A stretch of 64,000 bases of DNA from Halorubellus sp. JP-L1 (lineage in GTDB: Archaea; Halobacteriota; Halobacteria; Halobacteriales; Natrialbaceae), in contig NZ_JAAOIR010000002.1 in the NCBI RefSeq assembly GCF_011440375.1, positions 62,001 to 126,000 of the forward strand. Direction: 5' to 3'. A program made the translations under genes and the position numbers. Under the pieces are notes generated by a model, which searched no databases, was not told the origin of the DNA, and saw only the letters and a list, made by a program, of their open reading frames with translations. Shown piece after piece: positions 33,462-56,211 of this stretch. Each line of letters opens with the position of its first letter. Position 1 is the stretch's first letter.

Positions 33462-34853
33462 ATGGCCCCGACCGGGTCGCTCGACGTCCTCCTCGACCAC
33501 GCGCAGGACAAGATCGTGCTGGTCGACGAGGACGGCGTCGTCACGTACGCCAACGACGCGGTCAGACGCATCCTCGGCTACGAACCCGAGGACGTCGTCG
33601 GGACGAACGCGTTCGACTACATGCACCCGGAGGACGTCGACGAGGTCCGCGAGGGGTTCCGGCGGCTCGTCGACGCGGACGACCCCGCCGAGACCACGGC
33701 GACGTACCGGTTCGCGGCCGCGGACGGCTCGTGGGTCGCGCTCGAATCCCGGATGTCGAACTGCCGCGACGGCGACCTCGACGGGTACGTCGTGAGCTCG
33801 CGGGACGTCACCGACCGCATCGCCGCGGAACGCGACCAGCGCGAGACCAGCGCGCGCCTCCAGGAGCTCGCCGCCACCACGAGCGACGTCCTCTGGATGT
33901 TCAACGCCGACTGGAGCGAACTCCTCTTCGTCAATCCCGCGTACGAGGACGTCTACGGCGGCGACGTCGACGAGCTCCGCGCGAACCCCGGGTCGTTCCT
34001 CGACACCATCCACCCCGAGGACGTCCCGCGCGTCGAGGACGCGATGACGCGTCTCTCCGCCGGCGAATCCATGAACATGGAGTACCGCGTGAACGAGCAC
34101 GAGTCGTACACCGTCTGGGTGTGGGTGCAGGCCGAACCCATCCTCGAGGACGGCGACGTCGTCCGCATCACGGGCTTCTCGCGCGACGTCACCGACCGCC
34201 GGCGGCGCGAACGCCAACTGTACGTCATGGATACGCTCCTCCGGCACAACCTCCGGAACGACCTCACCGTCGTCCTCGGCGAAGCCGACCGCATCGCGAG
34301 CGAGCACCCCGCCGCGACCGACCGCACCGACGTCATCCGAGCGACCGCGAATGACCTCCTCGAGAGCGCCGAGAAGGGTCGGCGGATCGTCGAACGCATG
34401 GACGCCGACACCACCAAGCACCCCGTGGACGTCGCCGCGCTCGTCGAGCGTTGCGCTGCCGACGTCGCCGACCGCCACCCCGACGCAACCGTCCACTTCG
34501 ACGCCCCCGGGACCGCCACCGCGCGCTGTATCGACGGCATCGACGTCGCCGTCACCGAACTCCTCGAGAACGCCATCCAGCACAACGACGACCCCCACCC
34601 AGTCGTCGACGTCGCCGTCACCGAGCGCGCTGACGACGTCACCGTCACCGTCACCGACGACGCCACCCCCATCCCCGACGTCGAAGCGAACGTCCTCACC
34701 GGCCACCACGACATGACCGACGTCTACCACTCCAGCGGCCTCGGCCTCTGGCTCGTCTACTGGCTCGTCGAGCTATCGAACGGGAGCATCACTGTCGACT
34801 CAGGAGAGACTGGGAATCGTATTCAGGTTACGTTCGATCAAGTCAGCAAGTAA
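33462..34853 (+). CDS. PAS-PAS sensor histidine kinase
   Basis: 463 residues from ATG 33462. Two PAS domains (about 5-125 and 130-250; DEDGVVTYANDAVRRILGYE and TIHPEDVPRVEDAMTRLSAG) each end in the SRDVTDR linker. The H box is LLRHNLRND with His262. The N box is ELLENAIQHND, and the G box SSGLGLWLVYWLVEL. There is no membrane segment, so it is a cytoplasmic sensor, and no cognate receiver is nearby. The last 28 codons (after 34770) are less G+C-rich than the rest, and the stop lies 16 bp before the decayed IS element, so the C-terminus may have been altered by the island junction. Confidence 0.93.
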   Translation: MAPTGSLDVLLDHAQDKIVLVDEDGVVTYANDAVRRILGYEPEDVVGTNAFDYMHPEDVDEVREGFRRLVDADDPAETTATYRFAAADGSWVALESRMSNCRDGDLDGYVVSSRDVTDRIAAERDQRETSARLQELAATTSDVLWMFNADWSELLFVNPAYEDVYGGDVDELRANPGSFLDTIHPEDVPRVEDAMTRLSAGESMNMEYRVNEHESYTVWVWVQAEPILEDGDVVRITGFSRDVTDRRRRERQLYVMDTLLRHNLRNDLTVVLGEADRIASEHPAATDRTDVIRATANDLLESAEKGRRIVERMDADTTKHPVDVAALVERCAADVADRHPDATVHFDAPGTATARCIDGIDVAVTELLENAIQHNDDPHPVVDVAVTERADDVTVTVTDDATPIPDVEANVLTGHHDMTDVYHSSGLGLWLVYWLVELSNGSITVDSGETGNRIQVTFDQVSK

Positions 34854-34868
34854 ACCTTTGACGTGAAA

Positions 34869-35485
34869 GGCACTGTCTAGTTGAGCGATTTTGAGAAGCG
34901 AGGAAGTGATAGCGAGAGGTATACATGCAACTCGCAGACCTCCTCAGCGAAACGTTGGACGAGAGCCAATAAGACGTTTGGGAGAACGAGCGCACGCCGA
35001 CTCCCGTCCGGCGGTTCGGGGTGCGTCTCCATGGGCCAGGGCTGTCGATCAGGGAGACGGTTGCCATCCTGGAATTACTGGAGGTCCAACGCTCTCATGA
35101 CGCGGTCTGGCAGTAGGTACACCGGCTGGCCGACAGCGAGCCACAGCCGCCGACGGCGACGCCGTCGCGTGTCACCGTCGACGAGACCGCTATCCAAATC
35201 GGCACCGAATGGTACTAGCTGTCTGCGGCGATCGACCTTGATTCGCTGTATCTGCTGGATGTCGATGTATTCAGTCGTCACGGCACCGATCCAGAAGCGG
35301 GTTTCTGCAAAAACAATGGTTTCACACGTTCAAAATGCGGACTGCCTGCTTCCACACGAGTTGGGTTGGCAGTCTGCCGGCCGTCGCCGAATGGTGCCAG
35401 CAGTTCAAACGCTATTACAACTAGCATCGCCCAAATCAAGCGCTCGACGGCAACACGCCAGCCGAGGTGTGAACTATATAGTACC
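34869..35485 (+). mobile_element. Decayed IS6-family insertion sequence
   Basis: A left end ggcactgtctagttg (34869-34883) and a right end gaactatatagtacc (35471-35485) are imperfect inverted repeats (about 11 of 15 match). They frame a recognisable but broken IS6-type transposase reading frame. No target-site duplication is visible. It marks the left side of the A+T-rich island. Confidence 0.75.
34925..35472 (+). pseudogene. IS6-family transposase pseudogene
   Basis: Frame from ATG 34925 reads MQLADLLSETLDESQ, stop (34970), then DVWENERTPTPVRRFGVRLH, further in-frame stops after AVWQ and after IGTEWY, and the DDE-type segment VTVDETAIQIGTEWY and LLDVDVFSRHGTDPEAGF. An internal deletion with frameshift follows; the other frame continues KQWFHTFKMRTACFH and, after one more stop, HRPNQALDGNTPAEV and the terminal TGA. 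At least four nonsense changes plus the deletion make it non-functional. Confidence 0.88.
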
Positions 35486-35605
35486 CCTAATACTATCCTA
35501 TTTATCTACTGTAAGACTAATACTTTTCGCTCTTCTTGAAGGCTCCTGACTAACCTTGTAGAGCAACAAGTTTTTGATTCTATCGGCTCTTTTTGTATTT
35601 CACCG

Positions 35606-37957
35606 ATGGAATTCGGCAGTACGCTCCAACGTCAAATTGTAAGTATCAGCGATTCTAATCCGGAATTTGAAGCTAGCAGAATTGCTGATAAAGCCGATTG
35701 TTCTATCTCATATGTTTACGATATCCAAAACAAGTATCAAGACTTAATTGAAGAGGCTGATTCTATTGGTCCCAACCGAATTGGATTGTCTCTACATCAC
35801 CCAAACAAACTATTCATAAGCGAGGATTTGTCTGAAGATCTAGAACTCAATCTTGAAGAGACTCAAGTCACAGAATTCCAAATGGAAAATGGTGGTACTG
35901 AATCAGCTATACACTACGCGAAGACTTTAATGAAGTCCGACTTTGAAGCCGAAACTGAGCTTAGGGAACTTGCTTCTGTGTTTGCGCAGCTCGGCAGTGT
36001 AGACGGTTATGAAATTGGTACTAATAGCCTCCAGGCCTATTTTTCTGCTGACAAGAATAAATCAGCATTTGATAAGGAACATTTTGAACAGTATCTCGAA
36101 GATATTCGTGAAGAGTATCTCTCGAGACTGGAAAAAGCAGATGCTATTCTCGGAGCTGAGATCGCTGAACATGTTTTTGACTTATCGGTTGATGGTGAAA
36201 GCATCAACACTGAACGATACTTGCTGTCGTCGAATACTGCAGAAGAGTTTCTGTCTGCTGATTCATTCTGGATCCGTGAACTTTCTTCATATGATGGTTC
36301 GATTGAATCGGACTCGGAAATGTATGCCACGATGTGTCGTTCTCTAACGAATCATAGAGGCAACGAAATTGATGAAATAAAAGAACAAATATCTAATACT
36401 CAGTACTTCGCTCATGGTAGAAGATATCATCTGGGATACCAAACAGGCGTCGAATTAACGGCAGTAACTTCGACGGATTCCCATCTAATAGAGGTCGATC
36501 CCGATGAGATTGAATTCTTAACGGTAAAAACTACAATAGCAAAATCACAGGAAAACATTTCCATTGAAGAACTGTATGAGGTTTTGGATGGATTTACAGC
36601 TATTTCAGAATCCACGGGTGAAGAATATACCGCATATGTGACTAAACATGACTCTGCAGAACAAATTAATCTCCATTTAGCACCTGTGACTGTTGATATT
36701 TCTCTGGGGGAAAATGGGGTTTTCATCAATTACCCAGATACCCAGATGGGCGCTGATTTGAAGGAGGGAATATTTGAAGACATCAATCAAGAATTCGACT
36801 TAACCGAAGTGGACACGACACAATTAGAAATCGAACCCCGGAGTATTCATGGTGATTGGGTCTTTGACACTAATTCTATCTACCATAATATGGGTGAGAT
36901 CCCATCTAGTAATCTGCTCAACACTATCCTCCCCAATCCTTTCTTTTTTGGACAGACTGTAAGAATCCCGTGGACGGTAATTTATGAAATTAATAAGCAT
37001 AAGGACTCGGGTGGCCCATCGTCTACAGTTCAAGATCAAGGTCTCGTTAATCTGGAGACGCTCTCACTATTACAGGAACATGGATTTCTTGAATTTGAAG
37101 TAGAAAATATACCAAACTCTATAGATAGCCAAATAAAAGAATCAGATGTTGCGGATATGCATATCTTACAATTTGTTCAAGAGTGTGATGGTACTCTTGT
37201 GAGTGGTGATAAACGGCTTAGGAAACTGGCTGAACTGGCAGGAGTGCGTATCTTAGAGATTGAAAACCACTCTGCTGCTTCGCAAGTTCCAGACAAAATG
37301 GAGGAGATCTCGGATAGTGTTTTCTCTGAATTGGGGGAACACGGTTCAACCAAGCAAGAAATTCTCTCTATCGTAGAGTCAGCAATCCAATCTAAGGATC
37401 AGCAATCAACAATCTCTGTAAAAGATGAACAACTTGAAGACCCAGAAGCCTACCTCACGAGACTACTAGATAAGAAAGAACTCCTCCCAGTCCCTGCTTC
37501 GAATGATGAACTAACTTATAAACAATGTGGCGAGGTAGATGTAGTGGTCACGCCCAGTGCAGCGAAACAGATTAGCGATAATATCGTAAACGAGGGTGGT
37601 GATAAATACCTGCCAGAGAAAATTATCCATTCGATTGTTAAGAAAGTCGGAGACACCAATTATGACTTAGCGCATCTAAATTTTCACGCTCCTTTATCTT
37701 ACGTAATTGCGTTTCAATCGACTAGTATGGGTGGACTTAGTACTGAAGCTCGACAATTCTATAGATTGGGGAACTTAGAAAATGCTAGCTATACTACAGT
37801 TGAGGTAGAAGACAGCACTACGAGAGATGAAGAAATACACGACGCAGTTCTCGTTGCAAGAGAAAAAGAATACCCGGTTCTATGTACCGGTTTAGACCAT
37901 ACTCTTCAGCGAGTTGGTGGCCTACTGAATGTAAACGTTTGCGAATACGATAATTAA
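35606..37957 (+). CDS. Orphan multidomain PIN-nuclease protein on A+T-rich island
   Basis: 783 residues from ATG 35606; base composition is about 40% GC by eye against about 70% around it. Residues 14-50 look like a helix-turn-helix (FEASRIADKADCSISYVYDI). Residues 55-410 match nothing I know (mixed helical, then beta-rich). Residues about 415-555 form a PIN domain with all acidic positions: Asp421 (VFDTNSIY), Glu461 (TVIYEINKHK), Asp514/Asp517 (ESDVADMHIL) and Asp535 (TLVSGDKRLR). After an acidic linker, residues about 650-783 look like a second, degenerate PIN-like unit (VDVVVTPSAAKQISDNI ... HDAVLVAREKEYPVLCTGLD). Predicted cytoplasmic metal-dependent RNase. No antitoxin-like small gene lies beside it. 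The role is unknown. Confidence 0.85.
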   Translation: MEFGSTLQRQIVSISDSNPEFEASRIADKADCSISYVYDIQNKYQDLIEEADSIGPNRIGLSLHHPNKLFISEDLSEDLELNLEETQVTEFQMENGGTESAIHYAKTLMKSDFEAETELRELASVFAQLGSVDGYEIGTNSLQAYFSADKNKSAFDKEHFEQYLEDIREEYLSRLEKADAILGAEIAEHVFDLSVDGESINTERYLLSSNTAEEFLSADSFWIRELSSYDGSIESDSEMYATMCRSLTNHRGNEIDEIKEQISNTQYFAHGRRYHLGYQTGVELTAVTSTDSHLIEVDPDEIEFLTVKTTIAKSQENISIEELYEVLDGFTAISESTGEEYTAYVTKHDSAEQINLHLAPVTVDISLGENGVFINYPDTQMGADLKEGIFEDINQEFDLTEVDTTQLEIEPRSIHGDWVFDTNSIYHNMGEIPSSNLLNTILPNPFFFGQTVRIPWTVIYEINKHKDSGGPSSTVQDQGLVNLETLSLLQEHGFLEFEVENIPNSIDSQIKESDVADMHILQFVQECDGTLVSGDKRLRKLAELAGVRILEIENHSAASQVPDKMEEISDSVFSELGEHGSTKQEILSIVESAIQSKDQQSTISVKDEQLEDPEAYLTRLLDKKELLPVPASNDELTYKQCGEVDVVVTPSAAKQISDNIVNEGGDKYLPEKIIHSIVKKVGDTNYDLAHLNFHAPLSYVIAFQSTSMGGLSTEARQFYRLGNLENASYTTVEVEDSTTRDEEIHDAVLVAREKEYPVLCTGLDHTLQRVGGLLNVNVCEYDN

Positions 37958-38003
37958 AGAATCTCAGCTACCGTTTTTATTGGTGAAGTTCCATTCCCTT
38001 TCT

Positions 38004-47741: not shown

Positions 47742-48374
47742 TCAGCGCTCGCACTCCGGCGGCGGCACCTCGAGGTCGGCGTCTCCGTCACCGAACCGGT
47801 CGACGGAGAAGTGCGCGACTGCGGCGAGTGCCGCCGCGAGAACCGTTATCGCGAGCGTCGCCACGCCGGTGTCGGGTAGCAGGCCGACGGCGACGAGACC
47901 CGCGGTCGCGACCGCGCCGGCCACGCCCCCGATGGCGTACGCCGCCCACGGCGCCGCGTCGTCCTCGCGCGAGATCGCGTGGTACGCGTCCACGACGGCG
48001 TCGTCGCGGAGCGACACTTCGCCGCCGCGGTCGTCGTACGCGACGATCCCTGCGTCGTCGAGCTTCGGCAGATGGAACTGGTGCAGGGAGTTCCGGACGC
48101 TCTTTCGCTCCCGGTAGTCCAGTTCCGTCGGCGCGACGCCGTGCTCCCAGCCCGCGACGTGCTCGGAGAGCGTCGACAGCGACACGGGCTCTCCGGGCTG
48201 CTGGGCGAGGTGGTGCAGGACGAAGCGCCGTCGCTGGTTCGCGAGCAGCTCGAACAGTTCGTCGTCGCTCGGTCCCTCGGGTGTCTCGTCTTCGGTTCCG
48301 TCCACGTCCGTCTGCCGTGCGTCAGACGCCGTGGTGGAGTCGACTCCCCCCGTCTTCGGTTGTGCTTTACTCAT
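47742..48374 (-). CDS. Membrane-anchored winged-helix regulator (DUF7344-like), copy 1
   Basis: 210 residues from the ATG at 48372-48374 (MSKAQPKTGGVDSTTASDAR). A winged helix at about 38-120 (DELFELLANQRRRFVLHHLA, LSTLSEHVAGWEHG, SVRNSLHQFHLPKLDDAGIV) is followed by two hydrophobic segments (AAYAIGGVAGAVATAGLVAV; VATLAITVLAAALAAVAHF). The ANQRRRFVLHHL helix is typical of the haloarchaeal DUF7344 family. It is the divergent paralogue of the gene at 48843 and flanks the exported-protein cassette; control of that cassette is inferred. Confidence 0.88.
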   Translation of the reverse strand: MSKAQPKTGGVDSTTASDARQTDVDGTEDETPEGPSDDELFELLANQRRRFVLHHLAQQPGEPVSLSTLSEHVAGWEHGVAPTELDYRERKSVRNSLHQFHLPKLDDAGIVAYDDRGGEVSLRDDAVVDAYHAISREDDAAPWAAYAIGGVAGAVATAGLVAVGLLPDTGVATLAITVLAAALAAVAHFSVDRFGDGDADLEVPPPECER

Positions 48375-48434
48375 CGTGTCCCCCCGGACGAGTATAGAAA
48401 CCACGACCCACGCCCTTAGTTGTGCTACTTTATC

Positions 48435-48447
48435 ATGCAAGTTGCAT
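48435..48447. promoter_or_regulatory. 13-bp palindrome upstream of the HTH gene
   Basis: atgcaa-g-ttgcat is a perfect inverted repeat in the comparatively A+T-rich start of the 468-bp space between the divergent HTH genes, 61-73 bp upstream of the minus-strand start. A TATA-like tata occurs near 48393. The remainder (48450-48842) shows no gene; a run of cgaccacgaccacgaccacg lies near 48800. Confidence 0.45.
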
Positions 48448-48842
48448 ATGTCATGACTCGCATACTACTCAGATACAGTCGCTTGACGACGCGTAAACGA
48501 CGATTTTGGTCCGATTCCCGACTTCGAAACCGGTCCTCGTTCCGGTGAACGACCGGAACCGCCACGCACTCGCGGCGCACGGCGCTTCCCGCAACGTGCA
48601 CTCTCGTCGGATTGGAAGGAGGTGCCTGTGGTTTCGAGAGCCGTCATTGCGGTCGCGACCGTCGACGCGCCCGCATCCGATTGCAGTGCATAACAACGTG
48701 GAACGAACCCGTAGTCGATCGTGAACCCCCACCTATCGAGGGTGTCGACGACACCGACCGATCGGCGCCGGGGAACGCGGTCGGCCGACCGCGACGACCA
48801 CGACCACGACCACGACCACGACGAACGCATCCACCTCGACGC

Positions 48843-49436
48843 ATGAGCACGACACAGGACAGCACCACCACGACGCAGACGCCGCTCGGCGCGAGCGACG
48901 CCGACGCGCCGACACGCGACGAACTGTTCCACGTCCTCCGGAACCGCCGCCGTCGGTACGCGATCCACCACCTCAAGCGCGCGAACGAGCCAGTCGACGT
49001 CGGCGACCTCGCGACGCAGGTCGCGGCCTGGGAGAACGACGTCCCGACGGAGGCCGTCACGTCCAAGCAACGCCGCCGCGTGTACAACGCACTCCAGCAG
49101 ACGCACGTCCCCGAGCTGGACGACACCGGCCTCGTCGAGACCGAGCGCCGCGAGGTCGAACTCACCGAGCGCGCCGCGGACCTCGACGTCTACCTCGAGC
49201 TCGTCGACGGCCGGGACATCCCCTGGAGCGAGTACTACCTCGGCGTGGGCGCGCTCGGCGCGGCCGTCACGGCCGTCACCGCGCTGAACGTCGGGCCGTT
49301 CGCGGCGATTCCGGACGTCGGCGCGGCCGCGTTCCTCGCGGTCGCTATGCTCGTGTCCGCGTGCGCGAACTACTACTATCAGGGCGCGAACCGCCTCGGC
49401 GAGCGGGAGAAACCGCCGGAACTGCGGGGTGAGTGA
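48843..49436 (+). CDS. Membrane-anchored winged-helix regulator (DUF7344-like), copy 2
   Basis: 197 residues from ATG 48843 (MSTTQDSTTTTQTPLGASDA). The winged helix covers about 25-115 (RDELFHVLRNRRRRYAIHHL, DVGDLATQVAAWENDVPTEA, RRRVYNALQQTHVPELDDTG). Two hydrophobic segments follow (GVGALGAAVTAVTALNVGPF; AAAFLAVAMLVSACANYYY). The gene is 3 bp from the next exported-protein gene, so it is co-transcribed with the cassette. Paralogue of the divergent 47742 gene. Confidence 0.88.
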   Translation: MSTTQDSTTTTQTPLGASDADAPTRDELFHVLRNRRRRYAIHHLKRANEPVDVGDLATQVAAWENDVPTEAVTSKQRRRVYNALQQTHVPELDDTGLVETERREVELTERAADLDVYLELVDGRDIPWSEYYLGVGALGAAVTAVTALNVGPFAAIPDVGAAAFLAVAMLVSACANYYYQGANRLGEREKPPELRGE

Positions 49437-49439
49437 TCG

Positions 49440-50039
49440 ATGCACCGCCGAATTCTCGTGACGGCGCTACTCGCCGTCTCGGTGTCGGCGCTTCTCGTCC
49501 CGACCGGCGGATTCAGTTCGACGTCGATGGACCGCGGGGTCGCGATCTCGGTCGCCGACCACGAGGACGCCGTCGTCGCCATCTGGGACCCCGGCGGTCC
49601 CTCGGCGGAACCGCCGCGGAACCCCGGCGAGAAACCCGTCCGGTCCGCGGACGACGACGTGACCGTCCTCGTCGTACAGAACCGCTTCCCCGACCACACG
49701 CTCGACGTTCGCCTGACCGACCGCGCGGGTAGCGCCGTCGACGTCAGCGGGGGCGTCGCCGACGTTCGACCGGGAGCGGTCGTTGACGTCACCACTGCCG
49801 TCGACTGCAACGGCGTCCGGGGCCGCGTCACCGTCCCGCTCGAACTGACCGTGGTCTCAGCGGACGGCGCGGTCGCCGGCACCGTCGACTACACTGCGAG
49901 CGTCGTCTGCGCCGGCCAGCCGAGCGACGCCAGCGCCTCGGGGAACGCGACTGCTTCGGGGAACGCGACTGCTTCGGGGAACGCGACGGCCTCGGGGAAC
50001 GCAACGGCGACGAACGCCACCCGATCGAGCGTACCGTAG
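49440..50039 (+). CDS. Exported protein with SGNATA repeats
   Basis: 199 residues from ATG 49440. Sec-type signal MHRRILVTALLAVSVSALLV. The sequence after it, FSSTSMDRGVAISVADHEDA, parallels the start of the two DUF1102-like proteins downstream (NVERGMSVDVTDD). An Ig-like beta region follows (VTVLVVQNRFPDHTLDVRLT; GRVTVPLELTVVSADGAV). It ends in four SGNATA repeats, each with an N-glycosylation sequon, encoded by an 18-bp tandem repeat. Probably a cell-surface component of the same structure as its neighbours. Confidence 0.82.
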   Translation: MHRRILVTALLAVSVSALLVPTGGFSSTSMDRGVAISVADHEDAVVAIWDPGGPSAEPPRNPGEKPVRSADDDVTVLVVQNRFPDHTLDVRLTDRAGSAVDVSGGVADVRPGAVVDVTTAVDCNGVRGRVTVPLELTVVSADGAVAGTVDYTASVVCAGQPSDASASGNATASGNATASGNATASGNATATNATRSSVP

Positions 50040-50551
50040 CGTCCAGCGTACGAGGGTCACGCCCGCTTGCCACACTCGTTCTCGCCGTCGGTCCCGGGAC
50101 GTCTGGATCCCGCATCGACCGGGCTTCGTCAGTCGCAGCACCGACTCTCGTCGCACCGTCCGCGGTCGCCGAACCGTCCGCGGTCGCTGCACCGGCAGCG
50201 TTCGCTGCACCGTTCGCGGTCGCTGCACCCACCGCGACCCGTCGCTCCGGACGCGCGGACAGCGACCGATCGGCAACCGCGCTGTCGACGCGCAGTTCAC
50301 ACCTCGACCAATCCCGCGACGCCTCTACCGGTCTACGAGAATCAGCCGGAAGATACTGCCTACGCCATCGAATGACGCCATTCCGCGACCAAATGCGCCC
50401 CCTGCACGTCCACTGGCTCCCCCAGCGGACCCCTCAGTCGGTTCATGTAAACGTGGGTACGGGTCCCGGGGTATAGCAAGCGCGTCACCGACTCGACGCT
50501 CGGGGGACCCGGGGGGACGTCGGCGACGCGCGACGACCAGGTGACACAACC
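50040..50551. other. Non-coding spacer with degenerate short repeats
   Basis: About 510 bp inside the cassette without a credible gene. From about 50150 to 50232, copies of ccgttcgcggtcgctgcacc and variants repeat with 12-24 bp spacing. They follow the SGNATA gene end. The last 150 bp, before 50552, are non-repetitive and should hold the promoter of the DUF1102-like genes. Confidence 0.6.
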
Positions 50552-51079
50552 ATGGAACGACGCAAGTTCATGATCGGTGTCGGATCGCTCGCCGCAGGCT
50601 CTGCGGCTGCAATGGGAACCGGTGCGTTCAACTTCGCGAACGTCGAGCGCGGAATGAGCGTCGACGTCACGGACGACGGCAGCGCGTTCCTCTCGCTTCA
50701 AGACACGAGCCCCTACGCGGATGGCTCCGGGAACCAGCTGGGGCTCACGTTCGACGACGACGCGGGCGTGGGCGGCACGGGTGTCAACGAGAACTCGGAC
50801 TACTCGTTCACCGGCGTCTTCGGGATTCGGAACCGTGGTTCGCAGTCCGTCGGCGTCTGGATCAACGACAACGACTCGAGCGACGCCGTCGAGTTCTACG
50901 GTGCTGGCAGCAGCAACAATACGGACTTCAGCACGTCCATCGAAGGATCCGGGAACGCGTACGCGATCGATCCCGGCGAGACCGTCTACGTCAACGTCGT
51001 CATCCTCCTGCGGAACAACGACTACTCGGACCTGCCGGACACGATCAACGTCGTGGCCGACGCCTCCGCAGGGAACTGA
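50552..51079 (+). CDS. DUF1102/TasA-like exported protein, copy 1
   Basis: 175 residues from ATG 50552. Leader MERRKFMIGVGSLAAGSAAA has a twin-Arg start. The mature N-terminus GAFNFANVERGMSVDVTDDG and the following strand AFLSLQD are characteristic of DUF1102 proteins, which have the TasA/camelysin jelly-roll type. Beta-rich throughout (FTGVFGIRNRGSQSVGVWIN, GETVYVNVVILLRNNDYSDL). A SipW-type signal peptidase is two genes downstream, the same pairing as bacterial TasA and SipW. A role as fibre or pilus subunit is inferred. Confidence 0.85.
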   Translation: MERRKFMIGVGSLAAGSAAAMGTGAFNFANVERGMSVDVTDDGSAFLSLQDTSPYADGSGNQLGLTFDDDAGVGGTGVNENSDYSFTGVFGIRNRGSQSVGVWINDNDSSDAVEFYGAGSSNNTDFSTSIEGSGNAYAIDPGETVYVNVVILLRNNDYSDLPDTINVVADASAGN

Positions 51080-51106
51080 TCGCGGGACCATCCACCACTT
51101 CCAACA

Positions 51107-51691
51107 ATGAGACGGCGTCGCTTCGTAACTGCTCTCGGCTCGCTTGCCGGCGCGAGTAGCCTCGCGATCGGCTCCGGGGCGTTCAACTTCGCGAACGTCG
51201 AGCGGAGCGTCTCCGTCGCGGTGGCGGACGACCGCAACGCGTTCCTGAAGCTCACCCAGCGCGGGAGCGGCGAACGCTCGGACGTCGACGGCGTCCCTGA
51301 CACGATCGACTTCGCCATCCCCGGCGAGGACGAAGACGAGTACCCGTCCGGCAACCCGACCGACCCCGAGGGCCTCGGCGAGGACTCGATCTACCGGTTC
51401 GGCGAGGACGCTGGCCACGACGAGACCGGACTGTTCGGCGTCACCAACCAGGGGACCGACCCCGTCGAGGTGTACAGCACTCAGGCGCCGCCGACTACCG
51501 ACGTCCCGAGGGTCACGATGTACGACGTCGAGTCCGGCGACCTGTTGACCGAGAGCAGCCCGTCCGACCCGCTGGGGGTCGGCGAACAGTTGCTCTGTGG
51601 CATCGAACTCGACACGCACGGCGTCGACGCCCGATCCGACGCGTACGAGCTGTCGCTCGTCATCAACGCCCGCGTTCCGGGCAACAGCTAG
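51107..51691 (+). CDS. DUF1102/TasA-like exported protein, copy 2
   Basis: 194 residues from ATG 51107. Leader MRRRRFVTALGSLAGASSLA, then GAFNFANVERSVSVAVADDR, nearly identical over the junction to copy 1. The body is beta-rich with an acidic Pro-rich insertion (EDEDEYPSGNPTDPEGLGED) and DETGLFGVTNQGTDPVEVYS, matching the FGIRNRGSQSVGVW region of copy 1. It lies 27 bp after copy 1. The two may form major and minor subunits of one filament. Confidence 0.85.
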   Translation: MRRRRFVTALGSLAGASSLAIGSGAFNFANVERSVSVAVADDRNAFLKLTQRGSGERSDVDGVPDTIDFAIPGEDEDEYPSGNPTDPEGLGEDSIYRFGEDAGHDETGLFGVTNQGTDPVEVYSTQAPPTTDVPRVTMYDVESGDLLTESSPSDPLGVGEQLLCGIELDTHGVDARSDAYELSLVINARVPGNS

Positions 51692-51812
51692 CGAGGAGAG
51701 GGAGCTCTCGCGTCGCGTTCCGTCGTGCGTCTTCCACCCGAACGAGAAGGTCTCGCCTTCGAGGCCGTATTCGGCCAATACATACGGTGATACGTCGGGA
51801 TTGTTGCTTTCG

Positions 51813-52964
51813 ATGGACGCGAAGCGACTGGTGGCCTGGAGCGTCGAGGCGGTCGCCGTCGTCGTCCTCCTCTCGCTCGTCGTCGGCGGGATCGTCGGCC
51901 AGCCGGTGCTGCTCGGATACGTTGAGACGGGGAGCATGAGTCCGACGCTCGACGCCGGCGACGGGTTCGTCGCGGTCCCGCAGGCGATAGCGGGGTCGGT
52001 CGACGAGGGCGACGTCGTGACGTTCCGCGCGAAGGAACTCCACGGCGGCGGGCTGACGACGCACCGCGTCGTCGAGGAGACCCCGCGTGGGTACGTGACG
52101 AGGGGGGACGCGAACCCGTTCACGGACCAGGACGGCGCGGAGCCGCTCGTGAAGGAGCCACAGGTCGTCGCGCAGGCTCTCCAGGTGAACGGGCGAGTCG
52201 TCGCGATCCCGCACCTCGGGACGGCGGTCGAGACTGCGAGCGCCGCCGTCGGCGCCGTGCAGGCGTGGATCGCGCGCCTGACCGGGTCGGAGTCGCTGCT
52301 CGGGACGCAGGGCGTCGCGTACCTCGTGTTCGCAGCGAGCGCGCTCGTGTACGCGTTCGACGTCTTCGTCGGCGGCGGCTCCGGGCGGTCCGTCGGGCGG
52401 TCGAGGGCGCGCGGGGACGGCGTCAGCGCTCGCCTCGTCGTACTCGCGCTCGTCGCGGTCGTCGTCGCGTCAGCGACCGCGGCGATGGTCGTCCCCAGCG
52501 GCGTCCACGAGCACGGCGTCGTGAGCGCGGAGACGGACGGACCCGGCCCGGGCGTGATTCCCGCCGGCGAGCGCGAGAACGCGACGGTCGCGCTCGGGAA
52601 CGGCGGGTTCGTCCCGACGCACGTCTTCCTCGAGCCGGCGTCGGAGGGGGTGTCGGTGACGCCCGAGCGAACGACGCTGGACGCGCGCTCGCAGACGAAC
52701 GCCACGGTCATCTTCGCGGCACCGCCGGAGACGGGCTACTATCGGCGGTACGTCGCCGAGTACCGCTACCTCGCGGTGTTGCCGCGGTCGACGGTCGCGA
52801 CGATGCACGCGGTCCACCCCTGGCTTCCCGTCGTCGTCGTCGACGCGCTGCTCGGCGCGTCGTTCTACGCGCTCGCCAGCGCGCTCGTCGGACGCGGCCG
52901 CGTCCGGTCGCAGTCGCGGGACGCGCCGACGAACGCAACGCGACTGCTGAACCGACTGACCTGA
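51813..52964 (+). CDS. SipW-type signal peptidase I with C-terminal ectodomain
   Basis: 383 residues from ATG 51813 (MDAKRLVAWSVEAVAVVVLL). Signal peptidase core: ETGSMSPTLDAGD with nucleophile Ser41, and GGLTTHRVVEE with His84 replacing the bacterial Lys (archaeal/ER/SipW Ser-His type); DGDANPF-like box TRGDANPFTDQD. After a second helix (about 160-180) and a third (about 200-220) comes a beta-rich ectodomain (ERENATVALGNGGFVPTHVF; TLDARSQTNATVIFAAPPET) and a final helix. It is twice the usual size. It presumably processes the adjacent exported proteins. Confidence 0.93.
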   Translation: MDAKRLVAWSVEAVAVVVLLSLVVGGIVGQPVLLGYVETGSMSPTLDAGDGFVAVPQAIAGSVDEGDVVTFRAKELHGGGLTTHRVVEETPRGYVTRGDANPFTDQDGAEPLVKEPQVVAQALQVNGRVVAIPHLGTAVETASAAVGAVQAWIARLTGSESLLGTQGVAYLVFAASALVYAFDVFVGGGSGRSVGRSRARGDGVSARLVVLALVAVVVASATAAMVVPSGVHEHGVVSAETDGPGPGVIPAGERENATVALGNGGFVPTHVFLEPASEGVSVTPERTTLDARSQTNATVIFAAPPETGYYRRYVAEYRYLAVLPRSTVATMHAVHPWLPVVVVDALLGASFYALASALVGRGRVRSQSRDAPTNATRLLNRLT

Positions 52965-53004
52965 ACCGATTGACCCGAACCGATTGACCCGAACCGACTG
53001 ACCC
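52949..53004. repeat. 14-bp tandem repeat, 4 copies, over a stop codon
   Basis: gaaccgactgacct, gaaccgattgaccc, gaaccgattgaccc and gaaccgactgaccc in direct succession from 52949, then a decayed gaatcg. The TGA stop of the signal peptidase gene (52962-52964) spans the junction of units 1 and 2. The array fills most of the 88-bp gap to the DUF5305-like gene. Confidence 0.95.
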
Positions 53005-53052
53005 GAATCGAATCATGATCTCGAACGTCGACGTCGTCCGGTGGTCGAACGC

Positions 53053-54396
53053 ATGAACGAGCGAATACTCCGCGCGAGAGCCGTGCTGTCGTCGCACGCG
53101 ACCGTCGTGGTCGTCGCGTTGCTGGCCGTCGCGGCCGTCGGTGGCGTGCTCGCGTACGACGCACACGCCGATCCCGGTACCAGAGCGGTCGAGCGCTCGG
53201 TCGACGAGTGGCGTCTCGACGGACAGTTCCAGCACGGCGCGCGCGTCACCGCGACCGGTGCGGGCACGCCGTTCGAGCCGAACTCGACCGTGGAGAACCG
53301 CGAGGTGTACTTCGAGCGCGTGATGCCCGTGCTCTCCGGGGAGTTCGTGCTCGCGTACGACGGGACCGGTCCCGTGCGACTCCACCTCGACCGGCGGTTC
53401 GTCGTCGAGAGCGTCGCGTCCGACGCCGGGAGCGACGCGGAGACGGTGTACTGGCGACGGAACCGGTCGCTGGGGTCGGCGACGACGTCGGTCGCTCCCG
53501 GCGAGCGCGCGACCGCGGCGTTCGCGGTGAACGTCAGCGACGCCCATCGCGAGGCGCGGAACGTGAGCGAGCGCCTGGAGTCGCCCGGCGAGATCCGGAC
53601 GCGGATCGTCGTCGACGTCGAGGCGTCGCGGGGGAGCGAGGGAGCGCCGAACCGGACGGTCTCGTTCGCGCTGCCGATCGAGTCCGAGCGCGGCGTCTAC
53701 CGCGTCGGCGACGGCTCGGGGACCGAACGGTTCAATCGAACGGAGACGGCGACGGTCCCCGCGGAGCCGGGGCCGCTCCGGTCGACCGTCGGCCCGCTCG
53801 CGCTCCTCGTGGGACTCGCCGGCGTCGTCGGCGTCGGTCTCGCACGCCGCCGCGGCCACCTCGAGCTCTCGACGGTCGAGCGCGAGTGGCTCCGGTATCG
53901 AACCCGCGTCGCGGAGTACGACGAGTGGATCAGCGAGGGACGCGTCCCGGACGACGCACTCGACCGGCCGGCGGTCGTCCTCGACGCGCTCGACGCGCTC
54001 GTCGACGTCGCGATCGATACCGACGAGCGCGTCCTCCACGACGTCGACCGGGGCTCGTATCACGTCCTCGACGACGACGTCCGGTACGTCTACGAGACGC
54101 CAGAGCGTCCGTGGCCGGACACCGATGCCGAGGCGGCCAGCGACGCCGACCAGGCCGTCGACGACGCGCTCGCGTCCGGGGATGGATCGACGGGGGAGAT
54201 TTCGGCCGTGGACGACGTCGACTCGGCTGCCCTGCCCTTCGGCGACGAGGACGCACGAGACCCCGACGCGGTCCTCGACGACGGCATCCCAGGCGTCGAC
54301 GTGATGGCTGTCGAAGAGAACGATTCGGGCGCAGACGCGGAGGAACCCACCGTCGCGGACGGCGAGGAGACCGCCGCCGTGGACGGCGAGGACTGA
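53053..54396 (+). CDS. DUF5305-like membrane protein
   Basis: 447 residues from ATG 53053 (MNERILRARAVLSSHATVVV); an in-frame GTG at 53041 is possible. Helix 1 at about 17-38 (TVVVVALLAVAAVGGVLAYD), a large extracytoplasmic beta-rich domain (about 40-240, with VSEPxLxG-like strands and N-glycosylation sequons), helix 2 at about 255-275 (VGPLALLVGLAGVVGVGLAR), then a cytoplasmic tail with EYDEWISEGRVPDDALDRPA, typical of DUF5305. The C-terminus is a long acidic disordered tail. This family regularly accompanies SipW/TasA-like genes in archaea. Confidence 0.87.
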   Translation: MNERILRARAVLSSHATVVVVALLAVAAVGGVLAYDAHADPGTRAVERSVDEWRLDGQFQHGARVTATGAGTPFEPNSTVENREVYFERVMPVLSGEFVLAYDGTGPVRLHLDRRFVVESVASDAGSDAETVYWRRNRSLGSATTSVAPGERATAAFAVNVSDAHREARNVSERLESPGEIRTRIVVDVEASRGSEGAPNRTVSFALPIESERGVYRVGDGSGTERFNRTETATVPAEPGPLRSTVGPLALLVGLAGVVGVGLARRRGHLELSTVEREWLRYRTRVAEYDEWISEGRVPDDALDRPAVVLDALDALVDVAIDTDERVLHDVDRGSYHVLDDDVRYVYETPERPWPDTDAEAASDADQAVDDALASGDGSTGEISAVDDVDSAALPFGDEDARDPDAVLDDGIPGVDVMAVEENDSGADAEEPTVADGEETAAVDGED

Positions 54397-54459: not shown

Positions 54460-56211
54460 ATGTTCCTGACACTCCGGTCGGCGGTCGAGGACGCGCTCGC
54501 GGGGGCGCTCGCGGACCTCGGCTATCCGACCGACGACCTCGGCATCGAGGAACCGCCGGAAGACGTCGACGCCGTGCTCGCCTCGAGCGTCGCGTTCCGA
54601 CTGGCGAGCGAAGCCGGCGCGCCGCCGCCGCAGGTCGCCGCGGAGGTCGCGGAGGCCATCGACGTCGACGCCATCGAGTACGTGTCGGCGGTGACGACGC
54701 AGGGCCCGTACGTGAACTTCGTGCCGAGCGACGCGTACGACGCGGCGACGCTCTCGGCCGGCCAGGACGACGAGTACGGGCGGCTCGAGGACACCGGCGA
54801 GTCCGTGGTCGTCGAGCACACGAGCGCGAACCCGAGCGGCCCCATCCACGTCGGGCGCGCACGCAACCCGATCCTCGGTGACGCGGTCGCGAACGTCCTC
54901 GACTTCGCGGGCCACGACGTCTCCCGCCACTACTACGTGAACGACGCGGGCCGCCAGATGGCGGTGTTCACGTGGGCGTACGAGACGTTCGACGAGGCAG
55001 ACCTCGACTCGGAGCCCGAGCGCGACCGCATCGAGTACGACCTCGTCCGGTACTACCGGAAGGGGAACGCGTTCCTCGAAGAGGGCCCCGAGGACGCCGT
55101 CGAGGAAGCCGAGGCGGAGGTCGCGGCGATCATGCAGGGACTGGACGACGGCGACGAAGCCACGCACGAGCGCGTCACCGAGGTCGTCGACCAGATGCTC
55201 GACGGGATGACCGAGTGCCTCGCGCGCTTGCCCGCGGAGTTCGACGAGTTCGTGAAGGAGACGCAGTTCACGTTCGACGGGAGCGTCGACGACGTCGTCG
55301 CCGAACTCAAGGAGATGGAGGAGGCGGTGTACGAGGAGGACGCCTGGCAACTGGACCTCTCCGCGCACGGGATCGAGAAGAACTTCGTGTTCCTGCGTAG
55401 CGACGGCACGAGCCTGTACGCGACCCGGGACCTCGCGCACCACGAGTGGAAGTTCGAGAACTACGACCGCGCGGTCACGGTGCTGGGCGAGGATCACGCG
55501 CTCCAGGCCGACCAGCTCACGACCACGCTCGACCTCCTGGGGAACGACGTCTCCCAGCTCGAGCAAGTCGTGTACTCGTACGTGAACCTCCCCGGTGGCG
55601 CGTCGATGTCGACGCGCGCCGGCACCGGCATCGACCTCGACGACCTGCTGGACGAGGCGATCGAGCGCGCCCGCGGCGAGGTCGAGGACCGCATGGGCGA
55701 CCGCATCCGCGGCGACGGACTCACCGAGGCCGACGTCGACCGCATCGCGCGCCAGGTCGGGATCGGCGCGGTCCGCTACGACATCGTCTCGAAGCAGCCG
55801 ACGAAGGCGATCACGTTCGAGTTCGAGCGCGCGCTCGACTTCGAGGCCCAGAGCGCGCCGTACGTCCAGTACGTCCACGCTCGCGCCTGCGGCATCCTCG
55901 ACGAGGTCGACGACGTCCCCGAGTTCGACGCGAGCGCGCTCGAACGCGAGGAAGCGCGCGACCTCGTCCGAACGATCGCGCGGTTCCCGGCGGTCGTCGA
56001 GGAGGCCGCCGAGTCGCTCGAACCGCACGTCGTCGCGACGTACACGCGCGAGTTCGCGGAGGCGTTCAACGCCTTCTACCGCGAGTGCCCGGTGCTCAGC
56101 GAGGACGACCCGGAGACGCGCGCCGCCCGCGTCGCGCTCGTCGCCGCCTCGCGTCACACCGTCGCGAACGCGCTCGGTCTACTCGGCGTCGCCGCACCGG
56201 ACTCGATGTAG
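54460..56211 (+). CDS. argS: Arginyl-tRNA synthetase
   Basis: 583 residues from the ATG at 54460 ([20 protein letters not shown]); an ORF start at GTG 54454 adds two residues. It charges tRNA-Arg. The N-terminal Add-1 domain covers about 1-105. The class I HIGH-type motif is in [17 protein letters not shown]. The KMSKS region is reduced to [20 protein letters not shown], as is usual in ArgRS. The C-terminal anticodon-binding domain has the DALR-type end [20 protein letters not shown]. Full length. Confidence 0.97.

Follow-up and report, generated by a model that had tools for sequence, protein, structure and literature searches.

A cassette of seven open reading frames (ORFs) lies at positions 47742–54396 of a 64,000-nucleotide stretch of Halorubellus sp. 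JP-L1 DNA (contig NZ_JAAOIR010000002.1, positions 62,001 to 126,000; hereafter the window), within a haloarchaeal genome of 3.76 Mb in five contigs (Table 1). Two genes encode DUF7344 membrane regulators, P0001 on the minus strand and P0002 on the plus strand, and are followed on the plus strand by the gene for exported protein P0003, a 512-bp gap, and the genes for exported proteins P0004 and P0005, an S26 signal peptidase, and, last, a DUF5305 protein. The initial annotation, made from the sequence alone, had the two regulators flanking the operon; instead, both sit back to back on its 5′ side. P0003 begins four bases past the P0002 stop codon. The start codon of P0001 is uncertain, with 48404 or 48440 possible. 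A hidden gene in the gap was rejected, as six-frame translation revealed no subunit-like frame by eye. The next downstream gene, at 54460, opens another unit and presumably encodes an arginyl-tRNA synthetase.

Table 1. Features of the cassette, in window coordinates
Feature	Position	Strand	Basis
P0001, DUF7344 winged-helix protein, two C-terminal transmembrane (TM) helices; second regulator	47742–48374	−	PF24035, hydrophobic segments
Candidate operator GTTCCGGT-N5-ACCGGAAC, within the promoter region between the divergent regulator genes	48539–48559		8-bp arms, N5 spacer
P0002, DUF7344 winged-helix protein, two C-terminal TM helices; cassette regulator	48843–49436	+	PF24035, AlphaFold2 model
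P0003, pilin-like exported protein, partner to the regulator	49440–50039	+	Weak TafC match, position behind P0002
Region of 512 bp presumed to act as pilin-gene promoter	50040–50551		Six-frame translation
P0004, Tat-type tafi-type pilin, candidate main subunit	50552–51079	+	Match to 9p0a pilin
P0005, second Tat-type tafi-type subunit	51107–51691	+	Similarity to P0004
Archaeal S26 signal peptidase; its second exported domain, weakly Ig-like, is set between TM segments	51813–52964	+	TIGR02228
DUF5305 membrane protein	53053–54396 (start 53041, 53053, or 53056)	+	PF17231

The nature of the cassette is best read from P0004. Among all solved structures, its sequence alone has one clear relative, the pilin of entry 9p0a (E 4.8e-8), titled "Structure of Natrinema sp. 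J7-2 Tafi pilus", and a profile of 69 P0004 relatives matches this pilin over its full length (E 1.1e-34). The Taf genes belong to the Tat-fimbriae (tafi; Tat, twin-arginine translocation), which are found on the surface of haloarchaea (Galeva et al. 2025 iScience 28:111793, as cited in PMC12687288). When an AlphaFold2 model of P0004 (pLDDT 83.3, pTM 0.74) is compared by VIA, chain 9p0a_C ranks first (Z 9.5, rmsd 3.1, 118 aligned residues) and stands 1.6 Z above the next row; later rows include a ciliary protein (7.9), FimA (7.5), and the archaeal bundling pili 7ueg (7.3), with the Sulfolobus threads (7pnb, Z 6.7) further down. Foldseek places 7ueg first (E 1.3e-4) and 9p0a second (4.4e-3), and the likeness to bundling pili that had been guessed earlier thus finds support in the model. 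The fold places P0004 among the donor-strand fibres, and the sequence places it in their tafi branch; Pfam DUF1102 also matches (24.3 bits, cut-off 22.2). Hence, the cassette probably makes a tafi-type surface filament, with Tat export, S26 cleavage, strand exchange, a DUF5305 partner, and control by membrane DUF7344 proteins. As a filament system it would be of a known kind, tafi-type pili, and the broad earlier reading of an archaeal surface-fibre unit is supported.

Three exported proteins had been described as sharing features, and three are found, though they are not equally alike: P0004 and P0005 share 40% identity over 123 amino acids, whereas P0003 and P0004 align over 26 residues alone (E 0.023). 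A twin-arginine signature was identified by eye in P0004, which begins MERRKF (RR at residues 3–4), and in P0005, which begins MRRRRF (within residues 2–5). P0003 begins MHRRILV, with no clear Tat motif; its tail is rich in Asn, Ala, Ser, and Gly, and it matches TafC weakly (20.4 bits, cut-off 410). In the one alignment where RR is invariant it had been a selection criterion, so this invariance proves nothing. The "(N)VERG" motif, previously taken as the mature start, is probably not one: VERG occupies residues 31–34 of P0004, and the extent of the 9p0a model, which covers 188 of the pilin's 215 residues, points to F26. If that model is unbroken to the C terminus, the mature 9p0a chain would start at the F of GTGA/FSSVEADR, and hence P0004 would start at F26. 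Residues 15–30 of the P0004 model fall below pLDDT 50, and the first strand spans residues 34–40; this would fit a free N-terminal strand, without amounting to proof.

The earlier assignment of a Ser-His signal peptidase holds. The protein passes the archaeal signal peptidase I model TIGR02228 (54.0 bits, cut-off 51.85), and Ser41, His84, and Asp99, which we take to be its catalytic residues, are invariant in all 12 aligned sequences. Its second exported domain matches the Ig-like Cep192_D3 in one of the 12 members (E 0.0013, below the cut-off), and Ig_VWA7 is weakly matched in three; from these sequences comes the idea that the peptidase might be a fusion with a PapD-like chaperone, which, if true, would be a striking solution to assembly. 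The cassette peptidase type is also present in 12 plasmid records, all at <60% identity. The DUF5305 protein, likewise recognised from the start, matches PF17231 with 168.8 bits (cut-off 29) and has two hydrophobic segments and an acidic C-terminal tail.

The cassette recurs in other haloarchaea beyond chance. Loci were collected by aligning the peptidase and taking the best 80 of 317 relatives, of which 68 have full flanks; genes were called with a home-made caller plus profiles, so starts are rough and the count of RR subunits is approximate. All 68 loci contain a subunit gene, 61 an RR subunit, 63 a DUF5305 gene, and 58 a membrane DUF7344 gene (divergent in 55), and DUF5305, DUF7344, and an RR subunit occur together in 50. 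In the usual order, the partner and DUF7344 genes lie on one strand—in 45 of the 68, the DUF7344 gene is immediately followed by a subunit-like one—and one to three pilins, the peptidase, and DUF5305 run divergently. Many relatives possess, before the peptidase, an extra subunit-like gene of 380–520 amino acids and a gene of about 280 amino acids. The claim of a complete unit is plausible, since the same parts recur elsewhere, but the window has neither of these one or two further genes.

Comparison with five loci identifies the nearest relatives of the window's parts. P0002 is closest to the cassette regulator of Salinigranum salinum (71.6% over 169 amino acids), and P0003 to the gene in the same position there (43.5% over 154); P0005 (54% over 191, same position) and the peptidase (59%) are closest to those of Halorussus aquaticus, and P0004 to that of Halorubrum lipolyticum (57%). 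Relative to the S. salinum cassette, the window's regulator and partner are turned toward the pilins and the second regulator, P0001, is divergent.

A second cassette is present in the same genome (contig C1:552000–570000; L042:5054–9788), comprising DUF5305, S26 peptidase, RR pilin, divergent DUF7344-TM, and partner genes. A reduced third cluster (contig C4:332000–341202; L047:3832–7490) has a subunit-like gene, a shorter S26 peptidase (346 amino acids), and DUF5305; no DUF7344 gene was seen in it.

From these parts we infer a pathway in which P0004 and P0005 would fold in the cytoplasm, exit by the Tat pathway, and be cleaved by the S26 peptidase after GTGA. By donor-strand exchange, the freed N-terminal strand would then occupy the groove of the subunit that follows, with DUF5305 perhaps serving as a membrane assembly or anchoring partner.

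Both regulators belong to DUF7344 (PF24035, cut-off 27.8; P0001 100.6 bits, P0002 95.6 bits), are 36% identical over 183 amino acids, and carry two C-terminal hydrophobic segments each, which confirms the initial annotation's paralogous winged-helix pair with C-terminal membrane helices. In the AlphaFold2 model of P0002 (pLDDT 84.0), a helix-turn-helix and wing (residues 25–112) precede helices at 128–148 and 158–182, so sequence and model both back a seat in the membrane. By VIA, haloarchaeal RosR (6qfd_B) ranks first (Z 9.8, tied with others) in a list consisting mostly of winged-helix regulators; Foldseek returns weak matches alone (E 0.1 and above). In the model, only residues 113–127 separate the last wing element from the first TM helix, and only a short loop joins the two membrane helices, leaving no room for a large outer sensor; at E up to 1, no HAMP or sensor domain of Pfam matches either protein.

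The genome contains 28 DUF7344 domain matches, equating to an expected ~0.07 per 10 kb, the background against which a membrane DUF7344 gene at 58 of the 68 peptidase loci is to be set. Eight of these proteins are of the membrane type. Three are located at the two fibre cassettes and three by sugar-nucleotide-type genes (names read from sequence); a seventh precedes two type IV pilin-like genes, and the eighth has no evident surface gene. In the sugar-nucleotide region (L043:9468–18935), the three DUF7344-TM genes lie by epimerase-, aminotransferase-, and acetyltransferase-like genes in what may perhaps be an exopolysaccharide locus. At L044:6379–8160, the DUF7344-TM gene immediately precedes two genes, of which the first encodes a type IV pilin-like N terminus. 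In two other genomes (L250:8194–9060 and L258:7274–9627), DUF7344-TM pairs stand beside proteins with SipW-type signals (TIGR04088 39.6, 31.7, and 28.9 bits, cut-off 19), one of which carries a VWA domain.

A palindrome recurs at cassettes of relatives. When no more than two mismatches are allowed, so that at least 10 of the 12 positions agree, TTCAAG-N5-CTTGAA is present in 20 of the 58 intergenic regions between a DUF7344 and a subunit gene, compared with 3 of 432 controls, and the same arms at spacers of 3, 4, 6, and 7 occur in 2, 0, 0, and 1 regions; for all such counts, related genomes are not independent and the cassette regions are longer than the controls (mean 425 vs 248 bases). The motif was first noticed in early regions, and the 29 later ones (L163 onwards) served as a held-out test, in which it was found in 7 (vs 3/432 controls, Fisher p 2e-7). 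Among the 180 distinct orderings of the letters of TTCAAG, TTCAAG itself leads with 20 of the 58 regions and the next best reaches 8; in the held-out regions it ties with ATTGAC at 7, which may be the site of another lineage. More generally, perfect palindromes with 6-bp arms have about twice the control density in cassette regions when the spacer is odd, but are not raised when it is even. The five middle bases are biased (A-C-N-G-T), and the element is therefore a 17-bp palindrome.

Across 117 genomes of the family, 36 exact sites occur in 35 genomes (the reversed pattern, 22). For the 30 sites with a locus, a subunit gene lies within 1.5 kb at 25, 10 of which also have a DUF7344 gene. The remaining five comprise three within long ORFs, one without a recognised gene, and one in the Halorubellus genome. 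This last site, the only exact copy there (C1:89581), precedes a type IV pilin-like gene by 156 bp. A second type IV pilin-like gene follows the first, and the locus (L270, C1:89581–90716) comes just after chemotaxis-like genes. The palindrome is thus nearly unique per genome, is found at tafi-type promoters of relatives, and is new within the literature searched.

At the window's own cassette, the candidate operator (Table 1) differs in sequence from the TTCAAG site yet has the same geometry, and it is the only exact copy of its palindrome in the genome. P0002, with its paralogue P0001, may act as a membrane-tethered one-component regulator that binds N5 palindromes in cassette promoters, whether of the TTCAAG type or that of the window. 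P0003, being co-encoded with P0002, may report on export or assembly. Extending this, we tentatively propose that membrane DUF7344 proteins could be a dedicated haloarchaeal regulator family, sensing pilus export or assembly, paired with an exported pilin-like partner encoded behind them, and acting from the membrane on a palindrome of 17 bp. This nearly genome-unique element would read TTCAAG-AC-N-GT-CTTGAA in one family, have different half-sites in other lineages, and mark the promoters of tafi-type pilins and of some type IV pilins. As a hypothesis, this pairing of regulator and palindrome is the most useful addition to what was previously proposed.

Several results weigh against these readings. 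The Foldseek E-values of P0004 are modest, and FimA, MSP, and ciliary Ig-type folds also reach Z 6–7.9. P0005 matches 9p0a weakly and only at the N terminus (E 0.0049, residues 1–64). Against the NCBIfam model of TafE (NF052522, cut-off 155), P0004 scores 65.4 bits and P0005 29.5 at its N terminus, and against TafA (NF052520, cut-off 190) they score 23.2 and 21.5 bits. Orthology to TafA or TafE is thereby rejected at curated cut-offs while the superfamily is kept, and the two proteins are therefore named tafi-type. The genome has no match over either cut-off. Among 292 genomes of the class, TafE is matched (E <= 0.001) in 226 and over cut-off in 23, and TafA in 219 and 22, respectively; a gene whose N terminus is almost letter for letter that of 9p0a (L118:7503–8030) scores 140.1 against TafE, so the pilus type is broader than the group delimited by the cut-offs. 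In favour of the tafi reading, eight loci chosen from the 22–23 genomes over the TafA/TafE cut-offs (L110–L117) contain the peptidase in all eight cases, membrane DUF7344 in seven, and DUF5305 in five. As for the regulatory part, an exact TTCAAG palindrome is absent from the window's cassette, hence its operator is only a candidate; dinucleotide shuffles reach the window palindrome in 26 of 2,000 cases at spacer 5 and in 163 of 2,000 at any spacer of 3–8, so that on its own it is hardly better than chance.

The initial annotation had assigned the cassette to the TasA/SipW group, and a true bacterial-type TasA/CalY–SipW biofilm fibre system would indeed follow the same logic, with a dedicated S26 peptidase beside exported beta-rich subunits; moreover, donor-strand assembly is common to the fibres of TasA and those of archaeal bundling pili (PMC9674648). 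This identity is nevertheless very improbable and was discarded: Peptidase_M73 (PF12389, TasA/camelysin) has no match in the whole genome despite a positive Bacillus subtilis control, and the SipW-signal model TIGR04088 matches none of P0003–P0005 while matching other haloarchaeal proteins. The peptidase reaches 38.4 bits against the SipW model NF046067, far under the cut-off of 190, and the best partner in both sequence and fold is the tafi pilin. That TasA is not among the 50 rows listed in the P0004 fold comparison is counted neither for nor against it. That the exported proteins are bound to the cell surface or S-layer, sharing a pilin fold but forming no filament, is somewhat less improbable but still unlikely; exported Ig-like proteins are common and the window lacks the larger genes of many relatives, yet the full-length profile match is to a solved pilus subunit, and subunit genes accompany the peptidase in every full-flank locus, in a search anchored on the peptidase.

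Less easily set aside, though still the less favoured view, is the possibility that the DUF7344 proteins are mere neighbours, with the palindrome bound and the cassette controlled by some other factor. The family is large, as the count in this genome attests, and 15 of the 25 palindrome sites by subunit genes have no DUF7344 gene inside the 3-kb locus. In other genomes, a subunit gene is near only 3 of the 20 lower-scoring membrane DUF7344 genes, but near 17 of the 20 best-scoring; these 40 fetched matches were ranked by a profile built from cassette members, and the ranking is therefore partly built in. Also at odds with mere neighbourhood are the presence of DUF7344 at 58 of the 68 peptidase-anchored loci and the geometry of the palindrome, which is that of the ArnR boxes discussed below.

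The conserved parts list—dedicated peptidase, DUF5305, and a membrane regulator with an exported partner—together with a specific DNA site renders assembly and membrane-based control of this newly described pilus type testable in culturable haloarchaea that carry the cassette, such as Natrinema sp. J7-2 or Haloarcula hispanica. The literature searched, which did not extend to the texts of the tafi and bundling-pili papers, contained no paper on DUF1102, DUF7344/DUF5305, haloarchaeal TasA/SipW, or tafi in Halohasta. Elsewhere in the window, G+C is ~70% over most of the length and falls to 0.57 and 0.41 at 34001–38000, against ~0.70 around; this stretch is perhaps an acquired island.

Among known systems, the tafi of Natrinema sp. 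J7-2 (9p0a) share with the cassette the Tat-type signals, a homologous pilin, and the same fold, but P0004 and P0005 fall under the TafA/TafE cut-offs, there is no large TafC-like gene, the regulator unit is inverted, and a second regulator is added. The bundling pilin AbpA of Pyrobaculum calidifontis (7ueg) resembles P0004 in fold but has no sequence match to it in PDB sequence searches. TasA–SipW–TapA of B. subtilis combines, as here, an exported beta-rich subunit with a dedicated S26 peptidase; the window's cassette has twin-arginine signals instead of the SipW signal type, lacks PF12389, and misses the SipW cut-off. For the regulators, the closest working parallel is found in Sulfolobus acidocaldarius, in which, according to PMC6396743, the paralogous membrane-bound helix-turn-helix proteins ArnR and ArnR1, with two C-terminal TM segments, control surface filaments by acting on boxes TCGAC-N5-GTCGA. 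The DUF7344 pair is alike in its paralogy, N-terminal helix-turn-helix, two C-terminal TM helices, association with surface appendage genes, and N5-spaced palindrome. It differs in that ArnR possesses HAMP and sensor domains and controls type IV filaments, whereas DUF7344 passes almost straight from wing to membrane; the DUF7344 regulators would thus parallel ArnR in working without being members of its family. Transcription regulators anchored in the membrane occur widely among archaea (PMC10269533), and DUF7344, if the proposal is true, would be a second membrane-tethered family acting on surface filaments, this one outside Sulfolobus and with the same N5 geometry, suggesting that archaea widely control their appendages from the membrane.

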